This document shows, in pieces, positions 7,007-59,702 of a stretch of 64,000 nt of DNA. Source of the stretch: Haloplanus rubicundus (GTDB lineage: Archaea; Halobacteriota; Halobacteria; Halobacteriales; Haloferacaceae). Both the position numbers and the translations under genes were made by a program. The stretch is from the NCBI RefSeq assembly GCF_003342675.1, contig NZ_CP031148.1, positions 1,550,001 through 1,614,000 of the forward strand. Reading direction: 5' to 3'. The notes beneath the pieces are model-generated. The model was not told the DNA's origin, searched no databases, and worked only from the letters and a program-made list of their open reading frames with translations. Positions within the stretch are counted from its first letter, which is position 1; every line of letters starts with the position of its first letter.

Positions 7007-7121
7007 GCGGACGTTTCGCCGGCCGGCGAAAAAAGCGCGCTGGCTCGTACGGGTCCTTGCCAGTCAGTACCGAGCGGGTCCGGCGACTCCCCGGTACACA
7101 GTTAAGTTACAACGATCCGTC

Positions 7122-7595
7122 TCAGGCCGCGTCGACCGTCGCCTCGTGGACTTCCTCGTAGTCCGGCTCCTGTTTCGGGTTGTCGCCGACCCACGCGTAC
7201 GTGACCGTCCCGTCGCCGTCGACGACGAAGACGGCTCGCTTGGCGACGCGGATGTCGCGTGGCTCCCACCGGTCGACCACGTCGTAGGCTTCGATCAGTT
7301 CGCGGCGCTCGTCGCTGAGGAGGCCGAAGTTCAGGTCGTGTTCGTCGCGGAACTCGTTGAGCGTGTACGGCAAGTCGACGCTGACGCCGTACACCGTTCC
7401 ACCGACGTCCTCGAAGTTCGCCAGTCGGTCGCGGAACGTACACATCTCGGTCGTGCAGGTGTTGGTGAACGCCGCCGGGAAGAAGGCGAGCACGATTGGC
7501 GCCTCGTCGAGGCGGTCCGAGAGGGTGAACGTCTCGACGCCGCCGTTCGCGAGCGGCACGGTGAAATCCGGAGCGTCGTCGCCGATGTCGACCAT
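7122..7595 (-). CDS. Peroxiredoxin (AhpE/BCP-like)
   Basis: A 157-residue thioredoxin-fold protein with the peroxiredoxin signature P-x3-T-x2-C (Pro40, Thr44, Cys47 in FPAAFTNTC) and a further cysteine five residues on (Cys52), which could act as resolving cysteine. It reduces hydrogen peroxide and organic hydroperoxides in the cytoplasm. The start at 7595 (MVDIGDDAPDF) is preferred because it begins exactly at the usual peroxiredoxin N-terminus; a longer frame from 7694 adds non-homologous sequence. It is divergent from tatA. Confidence 0.9.
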   Translation of the reverse strand: MVDIGDDAPDFTVPLANGGVETFTLSDRLDEAPIVLAFFPAAFTNTCTTEMCTFRDRLANFEDVGGTVYGVSVDLPYTLNEFRDEHDLNFGLLSDERRELIEAYDVVDRWEPRDIRVAKRAVFVVDGDGTVTYAWVGDNPKQEPDYEEVHEATVDAA

Positions 7596-12977: not shown

Positions 12978-13055
12978 TACTGTCGGCTGTAACTGTTTCA
13001 AGATATTCGCCACCCCGGGGTGGCGAATATCTTGATTGACTTACAGCCGTCAGTA
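12978..13055. repeat. 78-base palindromic repeat, copy 1 (TA-flanked MITE-like)
   Basis: Outer arms TACTGTCGGCTGTAA and TTACAGCCGTCAGTA enclose CTGTTTC on the left and GATTGAC on the right, then a perfect inner palindrome centred at about 13017 (AAGATATTCGCCACCCC and its complement). It has the same length as copies at 37697 and 57185, with the internal CTGTTTC/GATTGAC boxes in the opposite orientation. Its right edge touches the stop codon (13056-13058) of the minus-strand chaperonin gene. The TA at each end suits a TA target duplication. Confidence 0.85.
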
Positions 13056-14720
13056 TCAGTGACCGATCGCCCACGGGTAGCCGCCCGGATCGCTCCGGAC
13101 GCCGCCGTGGCCGTGATCGTGATCGTGGTCGTGGTCGTGCTCTTCGCCGCCTCGCGTCCCTCGCGTCCGGATCACGTCGTCGACCCGGAGGACGAGCGTC
13201 GCCGCGTCCGTCGCGTTGGCGACGACGCGGTCCTTGAGTCGGACCGGCTCGACGACGCCGCGGGCCATCACGTCCGTGACGGTCCCAGTGTCGCCGTCGA
13301 CGCCGACCGACCGCTCGCCGTCGGCGTGGCGCCGTCGGAGTTCGAGCAGGCTGTCGACGGGGTCCATGCCCGCGTTCCGCGCCAGCGAGACGGGCACGGT
13401 TTCGAGCGCGTCGGCGAACGCGTCGACGGCGAGCGCCCGCCGGTCGTCGACGCCGCGGCCGAACGTCCGGACCGCCAGCGCGAGCTCCGTCTCCGTTGCG
13501 CCACCGCCCGGAACCAGCCCGGGACGGGCGTCGAGGGTCTCCAGCAGTGCGATGCCGTCGCTCACGATGCGTTCGGTCTCGTCCACGACGTGTTCGGGAC
13601 TCCCCCGGAGCAGTACCGACACCTGCCGCGACGACGCCTCCCGGACGACGACGAACGATCCCTTCCCGAGGCGCACCCGTTCCAGTTCGTCGGCGCGTCC
13701 GACCGCCGACGGGTCGAGCGCGTCGAGACGCATCACCGGCCTCGCGCCCGTCGCCCGGCTCAGCTTGTGCACCTCGTCCTGTCGAGTGCGCTCGAAGGCG
13801 AGGATACCCGCCTTGGCGAGGCGGGCACGGAGGCCATCGTCGATCGACTTCTGACAGAAGCACACGTCGACGCCGTGACTCCGAAGCGTCTCGACGTAGC
13901 GCCGGTACTCGTCGCGCTCGTGATCCCGGGCGCGCCGGAGGCCGTCGGGACTGTCGACGCTGTATCGTGACACCGAATCGGGCGACTGGATCGTGAGTTC
14001 GTCGTCGAGGAGGGCGATCCGTACGTCGGTCAGCCGGCGCGGCACGTCGGCGGCAATCGAGGAGAGGCTCGTCGAGGACGTGTCGGTGTCGATGACCAGT
14101 CCGTCGAGGAGCTCGGAATCCGTCGTCGCTTCCCCGGCGGCGCCGTGGACGGTGATGGCGGACAGGTCCGCATCGTCGCCGCCGGCGCGAGCGGCGCGGT
14201 ACGCCCGCGTCGACAGATCGGCGAGAAACGCCGTCCGGCGCTCGTCCCACCGTCCGGTGACCGCGGTCGAGACCACGGCACGGTGGTCCACCTCGCCGTC
14301 GGGCGCCGACGCCAGGTCGTCGAGGAGTGACCGGGCGTGGCCCGCCGCGTCGGCGTAGCCCGCGATCACCGTCGTCGGGTGGAGACCGTCGTCGAGGAGC
14401 GTCTCGGCCTCGGCCAGCAACGTCCCCGCGAGGACGATGGCGGCCGTCGAGCCGTCACCGAGTTCACCGCGCTGGGCCCGGGCGACACCCGCGAGGAGCC
14501 GCGCGGCCGGCGAGTCGAGGGAGAGCCGGTCGACGATGCTCGCCCCGTCGTTGGTCACGATCACCGTCCCATCGTCGACGAGCATCTTGTCGCGACCGTT
14601 CGGCCCGAGCGTCGTCCGCAGTAGCTCCGACAGTGCGGTTCCGGCAGCGATGTTTCGCTCCCGCGCGTCGTCCCCCGTCGTTCGTCCGTCGACAGCCGCG
14701 ACCCCGTGTATTCCATTCAT
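13056..14720 (-). CDS. Divergent thermosome-like (TCP-1/Cpn60 group II) protein with His-rich tail
   Basis: A 554-residue group II chaperonin relative. The ATP site is kept: TTLGPNGRDKMLVDDG (residues about 36-51), VTNDGAS, catalytic GDGST at 88-92, and VPGGGATETELAL plus AVDAFADALETVP in the C-terminal equatorial part. The apical region (about 200-370) is divergent. Instead of the usual GGM tail the protein ends with a run of alternating His-Asp and His-Gly (around residues 528-540), a likely metal-binding tail. It is probably a specialised or accessory thermosome subunit. A TATA-like box lies about 42 bases upstream. Confidence 0.85.
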   Translation of the reverse strand: MNGIHGVAAVDGRTTGDDARERNIAAGTALSELLRTTLGPNGRDKMLVDDGTVIVTNDGASIVDRLSLDSPAARLLAGVARAQRGELGDGSTAAIVLAGTLLAEAETLLDDGLHPTTVIAGYADAAGHARSLLDDLASAPDGEVDHRAVVSTAVTGRWDERRTAFLADLSTRAYRAARAGGDDADLSAITVHGAAGEATTDSELLDGLVIDTDTSSTSLSSIAADVPRRLTDVRIALLDDELTIQSPDSVSRYSVDSPDGLRRARDHERDEYRRYVETLRSHGVDVCFCQKSIDDGLRARLAKAGILAFERTRQDEVHKLSRATGARPVMRLDALDPSAVGRADELERVRLGKGSFVVVREASSRQVSVLLRGSPEHVVDETERIVSDGIALLETLDARPGLVPGGGATETELALAVRTFGRGVDDRRALAVDAFADALETVPVSLARNAGMDPVDSLLELRRRHADGERSVGVDGDTGTVTDVMARGVVEPVRLKDRVVANATDAATLVLRVDDVIRTRGTRGGEEHDHDHDHDHGHGGVRSDPGGYPWAIGH

Positions 14721-28958: not shown

Positions 28959-29135
28959 GGGGTCGTGGCCAAGCCCGGCATGGCGACTGACTCCAGAGGC
29001 AACGCCCGGTGACGACACTCCAGACTGATATACCGAGCGCGCGACTGATCATCGCCGCGCGACGACGACCCTCTGGAGTACCGAGGCGTAACCGGAGATA
29101 TCAGTCGATCGGGGGTTCAAATCCCTCCGACCCCA
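28959..29135 (+). tRNA. tRNA-Trp (CCA) with intron
   Basis: Exon 1 is 28959-28996 and exon 2 is 29100-29135. Acceptor stem GGGGTCG pairs with CGACCCC. D-stem GCCA pairs with TGGC. Anticodon stem ACTGA pairs with TCAGT around the loop CTCCAGA (anticodon CCA). T-arm is GGGGG-TTCAAAT-CCCTC, discriminator A. CCA is not encoded. The splice site forms a bulge-helix-bulge: CTCC pairs with GGAG, with 3-base bulges AGA (28995-28997) and ATA (29098-29100). Cutting after the second base of each bulge gives a correct 7-base loop. Confidence 0.95.
28997..29099 (+). ncRNA. Box C/D guide RNA inside the tRNA-Trp intron
   Basis: The 103-base intron contains a box C (GTGACGA, near 29009-29015), a D' box CCGA after GACTGATATA, and a D box CCGA after TCTGGAGTA. 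The D guide pairs with ACTCCAGA, and the fifth base before the box faces C34. The D' guide pairs with ATATCAGTC, and the fifth base before that box faces U39. This matches the known haloarchaeal pre-tRNA-Trp system that directs 2'-O-methylation of C34 and U39. A C'-like TGATCAT lies between the guides. Confidence 0.88.
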
Positions 29136-37696: not shown

Positions 37697-37774
37697 TACT
37701 GCCGGCTGTAAGTCAATCGAGATATCCGCCCTTCCGGGGTGACGCATATCTCGAAACAGTTACAGCCGACAGTA
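37697..37774. repeat. 78-base palindromic repeat, copy 2 (TA-flanked MITE-like)
   Basis: Arms TACTGCCGGCTGTAA and TTACAGCCGACAGTA, with GTCAATC on the left and GAAACAG on the right, so the interior is inverted relative to copy 1. The inner stem GAGATATCCGCC.../...GACGCATATCTC pairs imperfectly and differs in sequence from copies 1 and 3. Its right edge touches the stop codon TAA (37775-37777) of the minus-strand UPF0173 gene. Confidence 0.85.
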
Positions 37775-38506
37775 TTACTCCTCGGCGTACGGCCGCTCGA
37801 ACGCGAAGCTCCCGTCACCGTCGAGGACGTGCACCTCGGCGTCGGAGCCGGTCGCCGCCACCTCGCGCTCGACGTCTCCGACGTCGATCTCGATGGGTGG
37901 GAAGGTGTCGTAATGCATCGGGAAGACGTGATCCACGTCCAGCCAGTCGGCCGCGATGGCGGCCTGTGCCGGCCCCATCGTGAAGTGGTCGCCGACCGGG
38001 AGCGCCGCGGCGTCGGGTTCGAGGAACGGCCCGATCACGTCGCGCATCTCGCTCATCAGGCCGGTGTCGCCGGCGTGGTAGAACGCGAAGGCGTCCTCGT
38101 CGCCTTCCTGAGTGGGAACCGTATCGCCGATGACGTAGCCCGCGGGCATCCCCGCGCTGTACTCGTAGTCGGTGCCGATGCCGTTGGTGTGGTCCGCACG
38201 GTGCATCGTCACGTACGCCGACCCACACTCGACGGTGCCACCGAGGTTCATGCCGACGGTGTCGTCGCCCCCGTGTTCGTCGGCCACCCAGCCGACCAGT
38301 TCCGGTGTGCCCACGATCGTCGCGTCCGTGAACGCGCCCACGTCGCCGACGTGGTCGGCGTGCCCGTGGGTCAGGAGGACGTAATCGGGGGAAAGGTCGG
38401 CCGGATCGACCGACGTGAACGGGTTGTCGAAGAACGGATCGATCAACAGGGAGGTGTCGTCGACCGAAACGTGCCACGTGGAGTGGCCGTGCCAGGTGAG
38501 TTCCAT
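37775..38506 (-). CDS. Metal-dependent hydrolase, UPF0173 (metallo-beta-lactamase fold)
   Basis: A 243-residue protein. The metal ligands are visible: [10 protein letters not shown] (H-x-H-x-D-H), [19 protein letters not shown] and [11 protein letters not shown]. The N-terminus [11 protein letters not shown] is the UPF0173 start. It is a zinc or manganese hydrolase of unknown substrate, cytoplasmic. Its stop codon is immediately followed by the palindromic repeat copy 2. Confidence 0.92.
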
Positions 38507-38617
38507 GGTTCGTTCTGGAGTTGTCCGCATGCCAACATCAATCTTTAGGGATCGTCGCCGGGCGGGCACCCGCTCCAACGAGGAAGGCTTATTTCGCCCG
38601 CGGATAACGCAACCCGC

Positions 38618-39349
38618 ATGCGACGCGTCAGATTCCGCGATCCCGCAGGCATGGTTCGGACCGGCGAGTGGCACGGCGACGCCGTCAGCTTCGCCGATTC
38701 CACCTACGACCTCGACGAGGTGGACGTCCTCGCTCCGTGCGACCCGTCGAAAATCGTCTGCATCGGCCTCAACTACGCCGACCACGCCGATGAGACGGGT
38801 ATGGACATCCCCGACCGCCCCATGCTCTTCCTCAAGCCCCCCAACACCGTGGCCGCCCACGGCGACACGATCACCCTCCCCGCGGGGAAAGAGCAGGTCG
38901 ACTGGGAGGCCGAACTCGGCGTCGTCGTCGGCGAGCAGTGCCGGAACGTCGACGCCGCCGACGCCGAGGACGTGATCGCCGGCTACACCGTCGTCTGTGA
39001 CCTCTCGAACCGCGACGACCAGCGACAGGAACAGAACTGGGTCCGCGGCAAGGCCTTCGACGGCGGCGCCCCGATGGGGCCGGTCGTCGCCGACCCCGAC
39101 CACCTCCCCGACGACGCCGCGATCAGCCTCCGCGTCAACGGCGAAGAGAAGCAGTCCTCAGACATCACACAGCTCATTTTCTCCGTCCCCGAACTGATCG
39201 AGGAAATCTCCACGTACATGACCCTCGAACCCGGCGACGTCATCTCGACGGGCACCCCCTCCGGCGTCGGCGGCCTCGAAGACGGCGACGAGGTCGAGGT
39301 GGACGTCGAGGGCGTCGAGACCCTCGCGTTCACCGTCGAACAGGACTGA
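38618..39349 (+). CDS. Fumarylacetoacetate hydrolase (FAH) family protein
   Basis: A 243-residue enzyme with the FAH core: [41 protein letters not shown] (metal-binding Glu residues), and [16 protein letters not shown] (metal Asp), ending with [13 protein letters not shown]. It cleaves or decarboxylates diketo acids such as acylpyruvate or oxaloacetate; the precise substrate is unknown. A TATA-like GGCTTATTTC lies about 30 bases upstream. Confidence 0.92.
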
Positions 39350-44784: not shown

Positions 44785-45867
44785 ATGCAACCACGGGACC
44801 TTTCGGATCTCTCGCCGTACGTCCCCGGCCGCGGCGCCGAGGAGGTGGCCCGCGAACTCGGGATGGACCCCGACGACCTCACGAAACTCTCGTCGAACGA
44901 GAACCCTCACGGCCCGAGTCCGGCGGCCGTCGAGGCCATCCGCGAGACGGCGCCGCGGGTCGGCGTCTACCCCAAGGCCTCCCACACCGACCTCGGCGAC
45001 AAACTCGCCGACCGCTGGGACTGCGCGCCCGAACAGGTGTGGGTGACCCCCGGCGCCGACGGCGCCATCGACTACCTCTCGCGGGCCTTCCTCGACCCCG
45101 GCGACCGGATTCTCGTCCCCGAACCCGGCTTCTCGTACTACCGGATGAGCGCCCGCTACCACCACGGCGAGGTGGCGACCTACGAGTTGGCAAAAGCCGA
45201 CGACTTCGCCCAGACGCCCGCGACGGTGCTCGACGCCTACGACGGCGAGCGGATGGTGTATCTCACGTCGCCGCACAACCCGACCGGCGCCGAGTTCTCC
45301 CGCGAGGCGGTCGTCGAGTTGGCCGAGTCCGTCGACGAGGACACCCTCCTCGTCGTCGACGAGGCGTACGCGGAGTACACCGACGCGCCCTCCGCCATCG
45401 ACCTCCTCGATTCCTACGACAACCTCGCGGTCCTGCGGACGTTCTCGAAGGCGTACGGTCTCGCGGGCCTGCGCGTCGGCTACGGCGTCGTCCCCGCGTC
45501 GTGGGCGGACGCCTACGCCCGCGTCAACACGCCCTTCGCCGCCAGCGAAGTCGGGTGTCGGGCCGCCCTCGCCGCCCTCGACGACGACGACCACCTCGAA
45601 CGCACCGTCGAGACGGCGCGCTGGGCGCGTGCCTACCTCCGCGAGCACCTCGACGCACCGACGTGGGAGAGCGGCGGCAACTTCGTCCTCGCCGAAGTCG
45701 GCGACGCCGCCGCCGTCGCCGAGGCCACGAAGCGTCGGGGCGTCATCGTCCGCGACTGCTCCAGTTTCGGCCTCCCCGAGTGTATCCGCGTCTCCTGTGG
45801 CACCCGCGAGAGTACGCCCCGTGCCGTCGAGACGATCAACGACGCCCTCGCGGAGGTGCGGGTGTGA
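44785..45867 (+). CDS. hisC: Histidinol-phosphate aminotransferase
   Basis: A 360-residue class I/II aminotransferase. N-terminal LSPYVPGRGAEEVARELG and KLSSNENPHGPSP are the HisC start motifs, DEAYAEY holds the cofactor Asp, and FSKAYGLAGLRVGYG holds the PLP lysine (Lys222). It makes histidinol phosphate in histidine synthesis. A TATA-like CGCTTAAGCG lies about 25-34 bases before the ATG. Its stop overlaps the GTG start of the AK6 gene. Confidence 0.93.
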   Translation: MQPRDLSDLSPYVPGRGAEEVARELGMDPDDLTKLSSNENPHGPSPAAVEAIRETAPRVGVYPKASHTDLGDKLADRWDCAPEQVWVTPGADGAIDYLSRAFLDPGDRILVPEPGFSYYRMSARYHHGEVATYELAKADDFAQTPATVLDAYDGERMVYLTSPHNPTGAEFSREAVVELAESVDEDTLLVVDEAYAEYTDAPSAIDLLDSYDNLAVLRTFSKAYGLAGLRVGYGVVPASWADAYARVNTPFAASEVGCRAALAALDDDDHLERTVETARWARAYLREHLDAPTWESGGNFVLAEVGDAAAVAEATKRRGVIVRDCSSFGLPECIRVSCGTRESTPRAVETINDALAEVRV

Positions 45868-46373
45868 GCGACGACCGTCGGGTCGCCGTCACCGGGACGC
45901 CCGGCACCGGCAAGACGACGGTCACCACCCTGCTCGACGGCCCGGTGATCCACCTCAACGATCTGATCCGCGAGGCCGGCCTCTGGTCCGAACGCGACGA
46001 GGGCCGTGACTCCCTCGTCGCCGATCTCGACGCCGTCCGGGAGGCGCTCGGCGACTGGTCGGGCGTCGTCGAGTCCCACCTCGCCCACCACCTCGACGCC
46101 GACCGAGTTGTCGTCCTCCGGTGCCGGCCGGACGTACTCGAATCCCGCCTCCGGGAGCGCGGTGCCGACGAGGCCAAGGCGGCCGAGAACGCCGAGAGCG
46201 AGGCGCTCGACGTGATCCTCTCCGAGGCCGTCGACCGTCACGGCCTCGACAACGTCTACGAAATCGACACCACCGACCGGCCGCCGGCCGACGTGGCCGC
46301 CGACATCGAGGCCGTGATCGCCGGCGACCGCGACCCGAGCGCCGGCGACGTGGATTTCACGGACCATCTGTGA
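45864..46373 (+). CDS. Adenylate kinase AK6/Fap7 type
   Basis: A 169-residue P-loop kinase. Walker A GTPGTGKTT (11-19) opens the protein; NDLIREAGL is the NMP-binding part, and RCRPDVLESRLRERG the LID region. The small size and sequence fit the archaeal AK6/Fap7 group, which acts as adenylate kinase and in small-subunit ribosome maturation in eukaryotes and archaea. GTG start, four bases overlapping hisC, so the two are coupled. Confidence 0.9.
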   Translation: MSDDRRVAVTGTPGTGKTTVTTLLDGPVIHLNDLIREAGLWSERDEGRDSLVADLDAVREALGDWSGVVESHLAHHLDADRVVVLRCRPDVLESRLRERGADEAKAAENAESEALDVILSEAVDRHGLDNVYEIDTTDRPPADVAADIEAVIAGDRDPSAGDVDFTDHL

Positions 46374-46452
46374 TAATGTTCGTCGAAAGTCATCACCAAT
46401 TGTTCGCCGTACCGTGCCGGCGAACCACCAGCAAACGGTCACAACGATCATC

Positions 46453-47061
46453 ATGACCCTGGATCGTCTCCGTCCGCTGGCCGAACTCGTCCTCGATCCG
46501 ATGGTCGCGGCGGCCGACCGGATCGGCCTCACCCCCGACGGGATCAGCGTCCTCGCGTTCGGGTTCGCCGTCGCCGCCGCCGTCGGCTTCTCCCTCGCCA
46601 CGCCCGTCGGCTACGTCGTCGGCGCGCTCTGTGTCCTCGCGAACGGGTGGCTAGACCTGCTGGACGGCGCCCTCGCGCGCACCCAGAACGTCGACTCCCG
46701 CGGCGGCGACCTGCTGGATCACGTGCTGGATCGGTACGCCGACATCGTCCTCGTCGTCGGCCTCGCGGCCGGCGTCGCGCGCTACGACCTCGGTCTCCTC
46801 GCGGTCACCGGCGTCCTGATGACCTCCTATCTGGGCACGCAGATTCAGGCCGTCGGCCTCGGCCGGGAGTACGGCGGCCTCGTCGGCCGCGCGGACCGCC
46901 TCGCCCTCATCGGCCTCGGCGCCGTCGTCGCCGCCGTCGTGGGGGGACCGATCGGCCCGCTCTCCCTCTCGGTCGTCGGCTACCTGCTCGCATTCTTCGC
47001 CGTCATCGGCCACTTCACCGCGCTCCAGCGGTTCTGGGGCGCGTGGTCCGATCTGTCCTGA
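46453..47061 (+). CDS. CDP-alcohol phosphatidyltransferase
   Basis: A 202-residue membrane enzyme with the family motif D-x2-D-G-x2-A-R...G-x3-D-x3-D visible as DLLDGALARTQNVDSRGGDLLDHVLDRYAD, plus about five to six membrane helices. It transfers a phosphatidyl-type group (in archaea archaetidyl) from a CDP-lipid to an alcohol such as inositol phosphate, glycerol phosphate or serine. The alcohol is not known here. ATG 46453 begins the homologous sequence. Confidence 0.9.
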   Translation: MTLDRLRPLAELVLDPMVAAADRIGLTPDGISVLAFGFAVAAAVGFSLATPVGYVVGALCVLANGWLDLLDGALARTQNVDSRGGDLLDHVLDRYADIVLVVGLAAGVARYDLGLLAVTGVLMTSYLGTQIQAVGLGREYGGLVGRADRLALIGLGAVVAAVVGGPIGPLSLSVVGYLLAFFAVIGHFTALQRFWGAWSDLS

Positions 47062-56280: not shown

Positions 56281-56352
56281 GACGACGATCCGTCTCAGAG
56301 GAATTGTCGGGCGTCTGTAGCGATTCTCGCCGGACAGTTACGATACCCCCTC

Positions 56353-57117
56353 TCAGAACGACCGGTCGAGGTAACGATTCGCCCGCGCCACCGTCTCCCG
56401 GTCGTACGTCCAGAACCCCCGCCAGCGGTTCGGCTCCTGCTGGTGGGCGATCAGCGCCGCCCCCGATCCATCCGGCGGTTTGAACACCACACACCACGAG
56501 TTCCGGTACTCGTCGCTAGTGCCGGTGTGGACCGTCGCGTCGAGGCCCCGTGGCACCCCGTCCGGCACGCCGTAGACGTGCACGTCGACCGTCCGTCCCG
56601 CGAGCCGTTCGTACACCTTCTTCGTCCCGAGTTCGTCTTCGAGTCGCGAGAGCCGCTGGAACGTCGAGCGGAGCGTCCCCGCTCCCGCCTCGTACGCTCG
56701 TCGTTCGATGTGCCGCGAGACGAGAATGAGCAGGAGCTTCTCCTTGTTGGACGCCGGATACCCCCGCAGGTCGAACAGCGTCTCGTCCATCCCTTTGAGC
56801 ACGTCGGGCACGTCGCTGTCGAAGCCCTTGGTCCCCGTCTTGAACCGGTCGGCGTTCACGAGCAGGAACGACCGCATCAGTTCGCGGAGCGACGAGACGG
56901 CCGTCACCTGACCGTCCTTACGGAGGGCGACGATGTCGTCGTCGTTCTGCGGGAGCGACCGCTCGACCAGGTCGACCGACTGCATACTGAACGCGTCCGC
57001 GAGCAACTCCTGTACCGGCTCCGGATGTGTCCGATTGATCGTGACGAGCGACACGTCGTGGCGACTCGCCGCCTGAAAGAACTCCGTGATATCCGAGGGG
57101 CTGGCGTCGGCGGCCAT
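56353..57117 (-). CDS. DICT sensory-domain protein
   Basis: A 254-residue soluble protein. The core with LVTINRTHPEPVQELLADAF near the start, and GTKKVYERLAGRTVDVHVYGVPD, GTSDEYRNSWCVVFKPPDGSGAALIAHQQEPNRWRGFWTYDRETV in the second half, match the DICT domain, thought to be a light/ligand sensor in signalling. Here it stands without kinase or cyclase domains. A 78-base palindromic repeat lies upstream, next to the aroC stop. Confidence 0.8.
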   Translation of the reverse strand: MAADASPSDITEFFQAASRHDVSLVTINRTHPEPVQELLADAFSMQSVDLVERSLPQNDDDIVALRKDGQVTAVSSLRELMRSFLLVNADRFKTGTKGFDSDVPDVLKGMDETLFDLRGYPASNKEKLLLILVSRHIERRAYEAGAGTLRSTFQRLSRLEDELGTKKVYERLAGRTVDVHVYGVPDGVPRGLDATVHTGTSDEYRNSWCVVFKPPDGSGAALIAHQQEPNRWRGFWTYDRETVARANRYLDRSF

Positions 57118-57184: not shown

Positions 57185-57262
57185 TACTGTCGGCTGTAAG
57201 GCAATCAAGAGATCGGTCACCTCGGTGTGACTGGTCTCTTGAAACAGCTACAGCCGACAGTA
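57185..57262. repeat. 78-base palindromic repeat, copy 3 (TA-flanked MITE-like)
   Basis: Arms TACTGTCGGCTGTAA and CTACAGCCGACAGTA with GGCAATC on the left and GAAACAG on the right, in the same interior orientation as copy 2. The inner stem CAAGAGATCGGTCAC/GTGTGACTGGTCTCTTG pairs with two mismatches and is unlike the stems of copies 1 and 2. Its right edge touches the stop codon TAA (57263-57265) of aroC. Confidence 0.85.
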
Positions 57263-58420
57263 TTACTCGTCGACGTTCTCCGGACTGCGGGGGTGGTAGT
57301 CGGTGTCGTACTCGCCCGGCTTCCCGTCCATCCGGTCGGGGTTGGCTCGTCCCGACAGCAACAGGAAGTCGACGATGGTCAGGGCGAGCATCGACTCGAC
57401 GACCGGGACACCCCGCGGCGGGAGCACCGGATCGTGGCGCCCGACGACCTGAATCTCCTTTTCCTCGCGCGTCTCCCAGTCGACGGTCGTCTGGGTCTTC
57501 GGGATGGAGGTGGGGGCGTGGATCGTCACTTCGCCACGGATCGGCTGGCCGGTCGTGATGCCGCCCTGAATCCCCCCGTGGTCGTTGCCGACGGGCACCG
57601 GGTCGCCGTCCTCGTCGAACTCCCAGTCCTCGTTGCGCTCCGACCCCCTGTACCGGCGCGCCTCGCGCCCGAGGCCGAACTCGAAGGCCGTCGCCGCCGG
57701 CACCGACATCATCGCCTGTCCGAGGCGAGCGGAGACGGAGTCGAACCGCGGTGCCCCGAGCCCCCGGGGGACGCCACGTGCCTCGAACTCGACGGAACCG
57801 CCGATGGAGTCGCCCTCCTTCTGGTACTGCTCGATCCGCTCGCGCATCCGTTCGGCCGTCTCGGGGTGACCACACCGCACCTCGTTGTCCTCGCTGTGTT
57901 CCAGCATCTCCTCGAAGCTCACCGCGGGCGCTTCGATGTCACCGATCTGGTTGACGTGGGCCTTGAGTTCGATTCCGTGGTCGCCCAGAATCTTCTTCGC
58001 CACCGCGCCCGCGGCCACCCAGTTCACCGTCTCGCGAGCCGAGGAGCGCCCGCCGCCGCCCCAGTTGCGCGTCCCGAACTTCGCGGAGTACGTGAAGTCG
58101 CCGTGGGAGGGGCGGGGCGCGGTGATGAACGGTTCGTACTTGCCCGAGCGGGCGTCCTTGTTCTGGATGACCATGCCAATCGGCGTGCCGGTCGTGTAGC
58201 CGTCCTGCACGCCGCTGTGGATGCGCACCTCGTCGGGTTCGCCCCGACTGGTGGTGATCATCGACTGCCCCGGCTTGCGCCGGTCGAGGTCGCCCTGGAT
58301 GTCTTCCTCGGACAGCTCCAGTCCGGCCGGACAGCCCGAGACGACGACGCCCATCGCGTCGCCGTGGCTCTCGCCGTAGGTCGTCACCTGAAACAGACGA
58401 CCGAATCGGTTACCGTTCAT
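57263..58420 (-). CDS. aroC: Chorismate synthase
   Basis: A 385-residue enzyme. [17 protein letters not shown] at the start, then [46 protein letters not shown] and [13 protein letters not shown] are the conserved family blocks for FMN and EPSP binding. It makes chorismate in the shikimate pathway. The ATG at 58420 overlaps the aroA 3' end by 11 bases, so the pair is one operon. Confidence 0.96.
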
Positions 58421-59702
58421 GTTCGTCCAGTTCGGCCCCGAGGTCATAAAGCACGTCGAAGAACCCCGGGAAGGAGACGTCGACGTGATCCGCGCCAGCG
58501 ACGGCAGTCGTTCCCTCGGCGACGAGGCCAGCGATGGCGAGCGACATGACGATCCGGTGGTCGTCGTGGCCCGCCACCGTCGCCCCTCGCAGGTCGCTCT
58601 CTCCCCCGTGGATCGTCAGGGTGTCTTCCTCCTCGGTCACCGCGGCGCCCAGTGTCTCCAGTTCCGTCGCCATCGCGCGCACCCGGTCGGTCTCCTTCAG
58701 CCGGACGTGCTCGCAGTTGACGATCCGGGTGTCGCCGTCCGCGACGGCGCCGAGGACCGCGATGGTGGGCAGGAGGTCCGGCGTGTCGCCCACGTCAACC
58801 TCGACGCCCGTGAGGTCGCTCCGGCGGACCGTGATCTCGCCCGCCTCGCGGTCCCACGAGATATCGGCACCCATGCGTTCCAGCACGTCGACGATGGCGC
58901 TGTCGCCCTGCGCGCTGGGGTAGGCACCCTCGACGACGACGCCCCCCTCCGCCCCCGCGACGGCGCCCGCCGCGAGCAGGTACGACATCGACGAGAAGTC
59001 GCCGGGCACGGGGTAGGGATCGACCCGTTCGTATCGCTGCCCGCCCGGCACCCGGTAGCCCGTCGTCGTCTCCGCCGCCTCGATCCCGAAGGCGTCCAGC
59101 ACTTCGAGCGTGATGTCGACGTAGGGCGCCGACTTCAGTTCGGTTTCGAGGTCGATGTCGATCCCGTCGTCGGTCACCGCGCCCACCATCAGGAGCGCGG
59201 TGATGTACTGCGAGGACACGTCGCCGGGGATGGAGACGGTGCCGCCCGCAATCGGTCCGCCAACGACCAGCGGCGCCTGTCCGTTGCCCCGCGTGCTCTC
59301 CGCGCGCCCGCCGAGTTGCTCGACGGCGTCGAGCAAGGGTCCCTGCGGCCGCGAGCGTAGCGAGTCGTCGCCCGTCAGTACCGTCAGGCCGTCCCCGAGC
59401 GCCGCACACGCCGTGACGAGTCGGGTGGTCGTCCCGCTGTTCGCACAGTCGATGACGTCGTCGGGGACGCCCGGCCGGCCGGCGAAGCCAGTCACGTCCA
59501 GGTCGCCGTCCGTGCGGTCGACGGTTCCTCCGAAGGCCTCGACAGCACGCATCGTCGCCCGCGTGTCCGCGCTCACGAGCGGATCGGCGACGACGGCGCC
59601 GTCGCTGTACCCCGCCGCGAGGATCGCCCGGTGCGTGTAGCTCTTCGACGGCGGCGCGCGCGCCCGTCCCCCGACCCGTGATCTGGTGATGTCCACGTCC
59701 AT
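58410..59702 (-). CDS. aroA: 3-phosphoshikimate 1-carboxyvinyltransferase (EPSP synthase)
   Basis: A 430-residue two-domain enzyme. [19 protein letters not shown] near residue 17 binds shikimate phosphate/[11 protein letters not shown] and [12 protein letters not shown] follow, and [20 protein letters not shown] with [15 protein letters not shown] are in the second half. It produces EPSP for aroC. Confidence 0.96.

Follow-up and report, generated by a model that had tools for sequence, protein, structure and literature searches.

A mobile hairpin element of haloarchaea, probably mobilized in trans, that inserts with a 3-bp duplication and mostly at TGA stop codons

The window analysed here, a 64-kb stretch of haloarchaeal DNA, contains six copies of a family of short repeats that we regard, with considerable confidence, as non-autonomous hairpin elements of 76 to 81 bp, mobilized in trans, inserting with a 3-bp duplication, and mostly found at TGA stop codons. 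Insertion with a 3-bp duplication, preference for TGA, random orientation, recent movement, and neutral decay were all observed. We know of few mobile elements that have a stop codon as their usual site and a duplication that restores it, and since the stop codon is restored, the cost of insertion to the host is almost nil. This large family reaches up to roughly 100 copies in a genome, has been active recently, and is spread across the haloarchaeal order, and it raises the question of which enzyme moves the element and whether the hairpin is needed.

The preliminary description of the window reported three 78-bp palindromic copies beginning at 12978, 37697, and 57185, and their coordinates, arms, boxes, and central stem were all confirmed. 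These three copies, members of subfamily A, have arms of the type TACTGTCGGCTGTAA/TTACAGCCGACAGTA with 0 or 1 mismatch, CTGTTTC/GATTGAC boxes, and a central stem. Allowing up to 3 mismatches, the arm motif occurs 7 times in the window against 0.5 expected, a number never reached in shuffles, and the fold z-scores against shuffled sequence are -12, -6.5, and -9.4 for copies 1, 2, and 3, respectively. Copy 1 (12978 to 13055, plus strand; flanks TCG/TCA) directly adjoins the TGA stop codon (13056 to 13058) of a thermosome (Cpn60_TCP1) gene on the minus strand (13056 to 14720), this stop codon being the proximal copy of the target. Copy 2 (37697 to 37774, minus strand; flanks CCT/TTA) adjoins the TAA stop codon (37775 to 37777) of a minus-strand gene for a protein with a metallo-beta-lactamase fold (37775 to 39103), and copy 3 (57185 to 57262, minus strand; flanks CTA/TTA) adjoins the TAA stop codon (57263 to 57265) of a minus-strand chorismate synthase gene (57263 to 58447). 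Beyond these three, a covariance model search identified a diverged fourth copy of 80 bp (46374 to 46453, minus strand; flanks TGA/TGA; 58 bits, E = 1.8e-14), adjoining the TGA stop codon of the plus-strand gene at 45864 to 46373, and two decayed copies, both on the minus strand. One of these (7048 to 7121; flanks TCG/TCA; 22 bits, E = 9e-4) adjoins the TGA stop codon of the minus-strand gene at 7122 to 7595, and the other, which is also truncated (56298 to 56352; flanks TCA/TCA; 19 bits, E = 0.0065), adjoins that of the minus-strand gene at 56353 to 57117. The scores of the two decayed copies are weak on their own, and the calls are backed by flanks and position. All six copies therefore abut the stop codon of a predicted gene with a spacing of zero. 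Elsewhere in the window, Rfam gave a 177-bp tRNA match on the plus strand (28959 to 29135, 45.7 bits) at which ARAGORN made no call, and its length suggests an intron-containing tRNA gene.

That these repeats insert as mobile units is seen in their flanks. Across the 84 copies listed in the window's genome, the flanking 3-mers were identical on both sides in 40, against a mean of 16 and a maximum of 28 in shuffles, and identical flanks were nearly always TGA/TGA or TCA/TCA, in either orientation of the element. In another 18 copies one flank had been altered by a T-to-C transition (TGA/CGA or TCG/TCA), and there the flank serving as stop codon was the one retained, the distal flank having decayed. 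Copies drawn from distant genomes had identical flanking 3-mers in 18 of 20 cases. Empty sites in relatives, which the preliminary description had proposed looking for, were found at up to 97% identity. The clearest is site 2168960 of the window's genome, empty in relatives G005 (97% over 400 bp) and G008 (95%), both of which read GCGTGA followed directly by ATCACTGG, where the window's genome reads GCGTGA, the 80-bp element, and then TGAATCACTGG; the empty site thus holds a single TGA. The same site is occupied in G009 (C3, 216497 to 216576), a presence/absence polymorphism within the genus. Sites 1536561 and 2116154 and the sites of three G008 copies were likewise empty in relatives, and so were those of window copies 1 (in G003), 2 (in G009 at 88% identity, in G001, and in others), and 3 (in G011), these last being matched at 74 to 88% identity with looser alignment beside the junction.

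Nested insertions give the same picture. On chromosome C2 of the window's genome, a subfamily B copy at 577800 lies inside an A copy (locus 577768 to 577894), and an A copy at 2207212 to 2207289 lies inside an older copy; in both, the interrupted element carries a single TGA or TCA. A subfamily C copy at 805854 to 805931, which sits within one end of an A copy, is flanked by a duplication of ACT rather than TGA, which indicates that the length of the duplication is 3 bp and that TGA is preferred rather than required. Eight identical copies are present in G008, every one with perfect TGA/TGA or TCA/TCA flanks, implying that the family moved recently there. The empty sites, the 3-bp duplication, the nested insertions, and the eight identical G008 copies together bear out the earlier view of a mobile, transposase-free, MITE-like repeat.

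The same evidence overturns the rest of that view, which took the TA at each edge for a duplicated target and assigned the repeat to the MITEs of the IS630/Tc1-mariner type. The element is indeed short, palindromic, present in high copy number, and bounded by TA on both sides. However, the empty sites that the preliminary description named as the arbiter hold a single TGA or TCA, and what is duplicated is TGA, not TA. The arms begin TACTG, TACGG, or TAGGG with the TGA lying outside, so that the TA at each edge is the element's own sequence, and the few copies that start GA or CA nevertheless retain TGA flanks. We therefore consider an IS630/Tc1-mariner origin extremely improbable.

The association with stop codons extends well beyond the window. 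In its genome 59 of the 76 usable sites (78%) are stop codons of called genes, as are 69 of 96 when the G008 sites are added, and a separate codon-usage test placed 60 of 84 copies at genuine stops. By comparison, the stop share of bare intergenic TGA is 13% in the window and 15% in 225 kb of loci (p = 1e-33). The elements show no preferred orientation with respect to the stop (35:41). TAG stops are never used by copies, although 19 of the 64 stops of genes called in the window are TAG, a codon unusually common as a stop in this genome. The consensus of the occupied sites is (C/G)GAC-TGA-G, and it is also seen at 27 sites away from called stops, arguing that the preference is read from DNA and not from translation. 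Haloarchaeal genes often end GAC/GNC-TGA and so carry the motif, with the result that weighting by motif lifts the expected stop share to 30 to 38%. If motif and absence from coding DNA are both taken into account, 38% of sites should be stops, against the 72 to 78% observed (p of about 1e-11 to 1e-12). A DNA-level target that coincides with gene ends, combined with selection against insertions elsewhere, thus explains much of the bias but not all of it, and the remaining excess needs purging of insertions in promoters and genes, a finer sequence preference, or both. Some sites scored as lying away from stops may belong to short genes missed by the gene caller, which would raise the observed share. 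At 5 of the 8 identical young copies in G008, a frame of more than 100 codons ends at the copy's edge; the counts are small, but they suggest that the bias exists from the time of insertion or shortly afterwards. The duplication restores both the stop codon and the full C terminus, making insertion at a stop nearly harmless to the gene.

Such a bias above the motif-based expectation, with about 75% of copies exactly at stops and a strong hairpin, might also be expected of a host function at gene 3' ends, as a terminator or a stabilizer of mRNA 3' ends, with only stop-abutting copies surviving. Against this, sites are empty in close relatives, decayed copies remain in place without their fold, no U-tract requirement is seen, and the bias is already there in the young G008 copies, small as their number is; we judge a host function improbable. 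Integron attC sites also sit after stop codons; the copies studied here have no RYYYAAC/GTTRRRY cores and are scattered rather than arrayed, and that identity was rejected.

Most copies are 76 to 81 bp long and are bounded by outer arms of 15 bp, which define subfamily A by the arm given above, subfamily B by TACGGATTATTGTAA, and subfamily C by TAGGGATTATCGTAA, with other arms in other genera. Inward from the arms lie a conserved, asymmetric pair of boxes (CTGT.../...TGAC), then another paired segment, and finally a short loop. The bases of the internal loop do not fit a kink-turn or a bulge-helix-bulge RNA motif. Covariation is seen in both stems (doubly changed cells number 294, against 103 in shuffles; covariation of 0.366 against 0.154), and pairing of the second stem extends to every subfamily despite its differing sequence. 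The decayed copies in the window no longer fold, which indicates that pairing is not kept after insertion, and pairing of the core must be kept either in the moving lineage or by quasi-palindrome correction during replication. Quasi-palindrome template switching is a known mutational mechanism, and it would account for compensatory changes in the core without any need for a hairpin in transposition. In line with this suggestion, the core stays paired while its sequence varies between copies, and pairing is lost in decayed copies. Across genera, however, core length departs from 80 by no more than a few bases, and such near constancy points to functional constraint on the active lineage; we hold template switching to be a real possibility, though not the probable one.

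A covariance model built from 18 copies detected at least 84 in the window's genome, every one on the 3.4-Mb chromosome (C2); contigs C1 and C3, which total about 372 kb, have none of those listed, and the copy density of the chromosome predicts about 9 there. In two relatives, G004 and G009, copies are carried on smaller contigs. A second model, built from 76 copies and used for the genus, family, and order searches, recovered copies from each of 12 genomes in the genus, from 41 of 170 in the family, and, in the sample of the order, from 176 of 392 genomes belonging to 52 of 95 genera, with copy numbers per genome being lower bounds throughout. Named records that bear copies come from Haloplanus, Halobellus, Halomicrobium, and Natronomonas. 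Exact-pattern scans of genome contigs matched 0 and 1 record, and a search of viral contigs with one exact 25-mer pattern gave no carrier. A copy with A-type arms lies between orthologous genes in two species of one genus (loci L208 and L209; genomes G089 and G087), indicating that some copies go back far enough to be shared between species. No recurrent neighbouring gene was seen across genera. On plasmid pHmuk01 of Halomicrobium mukohataei, HMUK_RS17945 (L213, 2846 to 3046), annotated as a hypothetical protein, runs into a copy of the element, and small annotated open reading frames beside the repeats may therefore be spurious or extended. The copies gave no Rfam match, and we found no description of the family in the literature searched, which covered few subscription journals and included no comparison with ISfinder. 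A family that has no Rfam entry and places a stable hairpin right after many stop codons bears on studies of haloarchaeal 3' untranslated regions and terminators.

The full element with the same ends that the preliminary description suggested seeking was found neither in G000, the window's genome, searched with subfamily A arms, nor in G008, searched with subfamily B arms, and the unpaired arms inspected in these searches were all decayed 80-mers. IS5-type transposons of the IS1031 group make 3-bp TNA duplications, and both the length and the T-N-A type of the duplication would fit the element; among the 17 DDE_Tnp_1 matches in G008, none combines matching ends with a 3-bp TGA duplication, and just one locus (L238) has a copy in its surroundings, a single one 1.3 kb away. 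No copies lie beside Y1_Tnp genes in G000 or G008, and the one Y1_Tnp gene of G008, a 126-residue frame resembling the IS200 type, has none near it. These results bear on a REPIN-like reading, under which a tyrosine (Y1/RAYT) or other HUH-type enzyme, encoded in single copy, would move the element as structured single-stranded DNA. The conserved arms with a variable, compensated core are as described for REPINs (PMC3116915), and the failure to find a full-length parent in G000 and G008 accords with this reading. The sole G008 Y1_Tnp gene, being IS200-like and distant from copies, speaks against it, as do the 3-bp duplication and the random orientation, neither of which is expected from a strand-specific Y1 reaction, and the absence of a GTAG/CGTC tag at the foot; we consider this reading rather unlikely.

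We favour instead the trans-mobilized element proposed at the outset. A transposase supplied in trans and acting on double-stranded DNA would recognize the arms and boxes, make 3-bp staggered cuts in the target, and insert the element mostly into TGA in a (C/G)GAC-TGA-G context, on either strand and in either orientation, leaving the 3-bp duplication. Stops would be over-represented both through the many gene ends that carry the DNA target (GAC/GNC-TGA) and through purging of insertions in genes and promoters, and copies would decay neutrally once inserted. Several points weigh against this explanation: the share of stops expected from the motif and from absence in coding DNA falls short of that observed, so that some additional specificity or selection is needed; a core that keeps its pairing while changing its sequence is not required of an ordinary element with terminal inverted repeats; the arm searches of G000 and G008 gave no autonomous element; and no mobilizing enzyme was found by the Y1_Tnp search in G000 and G008 or by the DDE_Tnp_1 search in G008.

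Set beside known systems, the element counts as a MITE if the term is taken broadly, though not as an IS630/mariner MITE. Like MITEs in general, it is short and geneless, has inverted ends and a target duplication, is present in many copies, and is polymorphic for presence and absence; unlike them, it has no parent transposon in the two genomes searched, forms a hairpin over its whole length, and has arms that diverge widely while the architecture stays. The SMR-A and SMR-B elements of Haloquadratum walsbyi are 80 to 110 bp long, with terminal inverted repeats and no known transposase, and SMR-A makes no target duplication and is inserted into PATE/IS605 palindromes (PMC3119063). Our element resembles the SMRs in its haloarchaeal hosts, size, terminal inverted repeats, and strong target preference, and differs from SMR-A in its 3-bp duplication, its TGA target, and its location mostly at gene stops. 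REPINs are REP doublets that form hairpins and are short, non-autonomous, and mobile; their inverted arms are conserved, and their spacer keeps only its length and its pairing, through compensatory changes (Bertels & Rainey 2011, PMC3116915). Conserved arms, a variable but paired spacer, and the lack of a full-length autonomous parent are common to both, whereas our element is set apart by its 3-bp duplication of TGA, by its stop-codon insertion sites, by the absence of a GTAG/CGTC-type foot tag, and by the absence of a RAYT/Y1 gene beside copies in the two genomes tested. It therefore works most like a REPIN, yet fails the RAYT and tag tests. We tentatively raise the possibility of an order-wide class of hairpins moved by a recombinase not yet described, encoded by the host and probably single-copy, that acts on the folded arm and box structure and has a built-in specificity for TGA at gene ends; the element would then be the equivalent in archaea of the REPIN/RAYT system, with a different chemistry, that of a 3-bp staggered cut.
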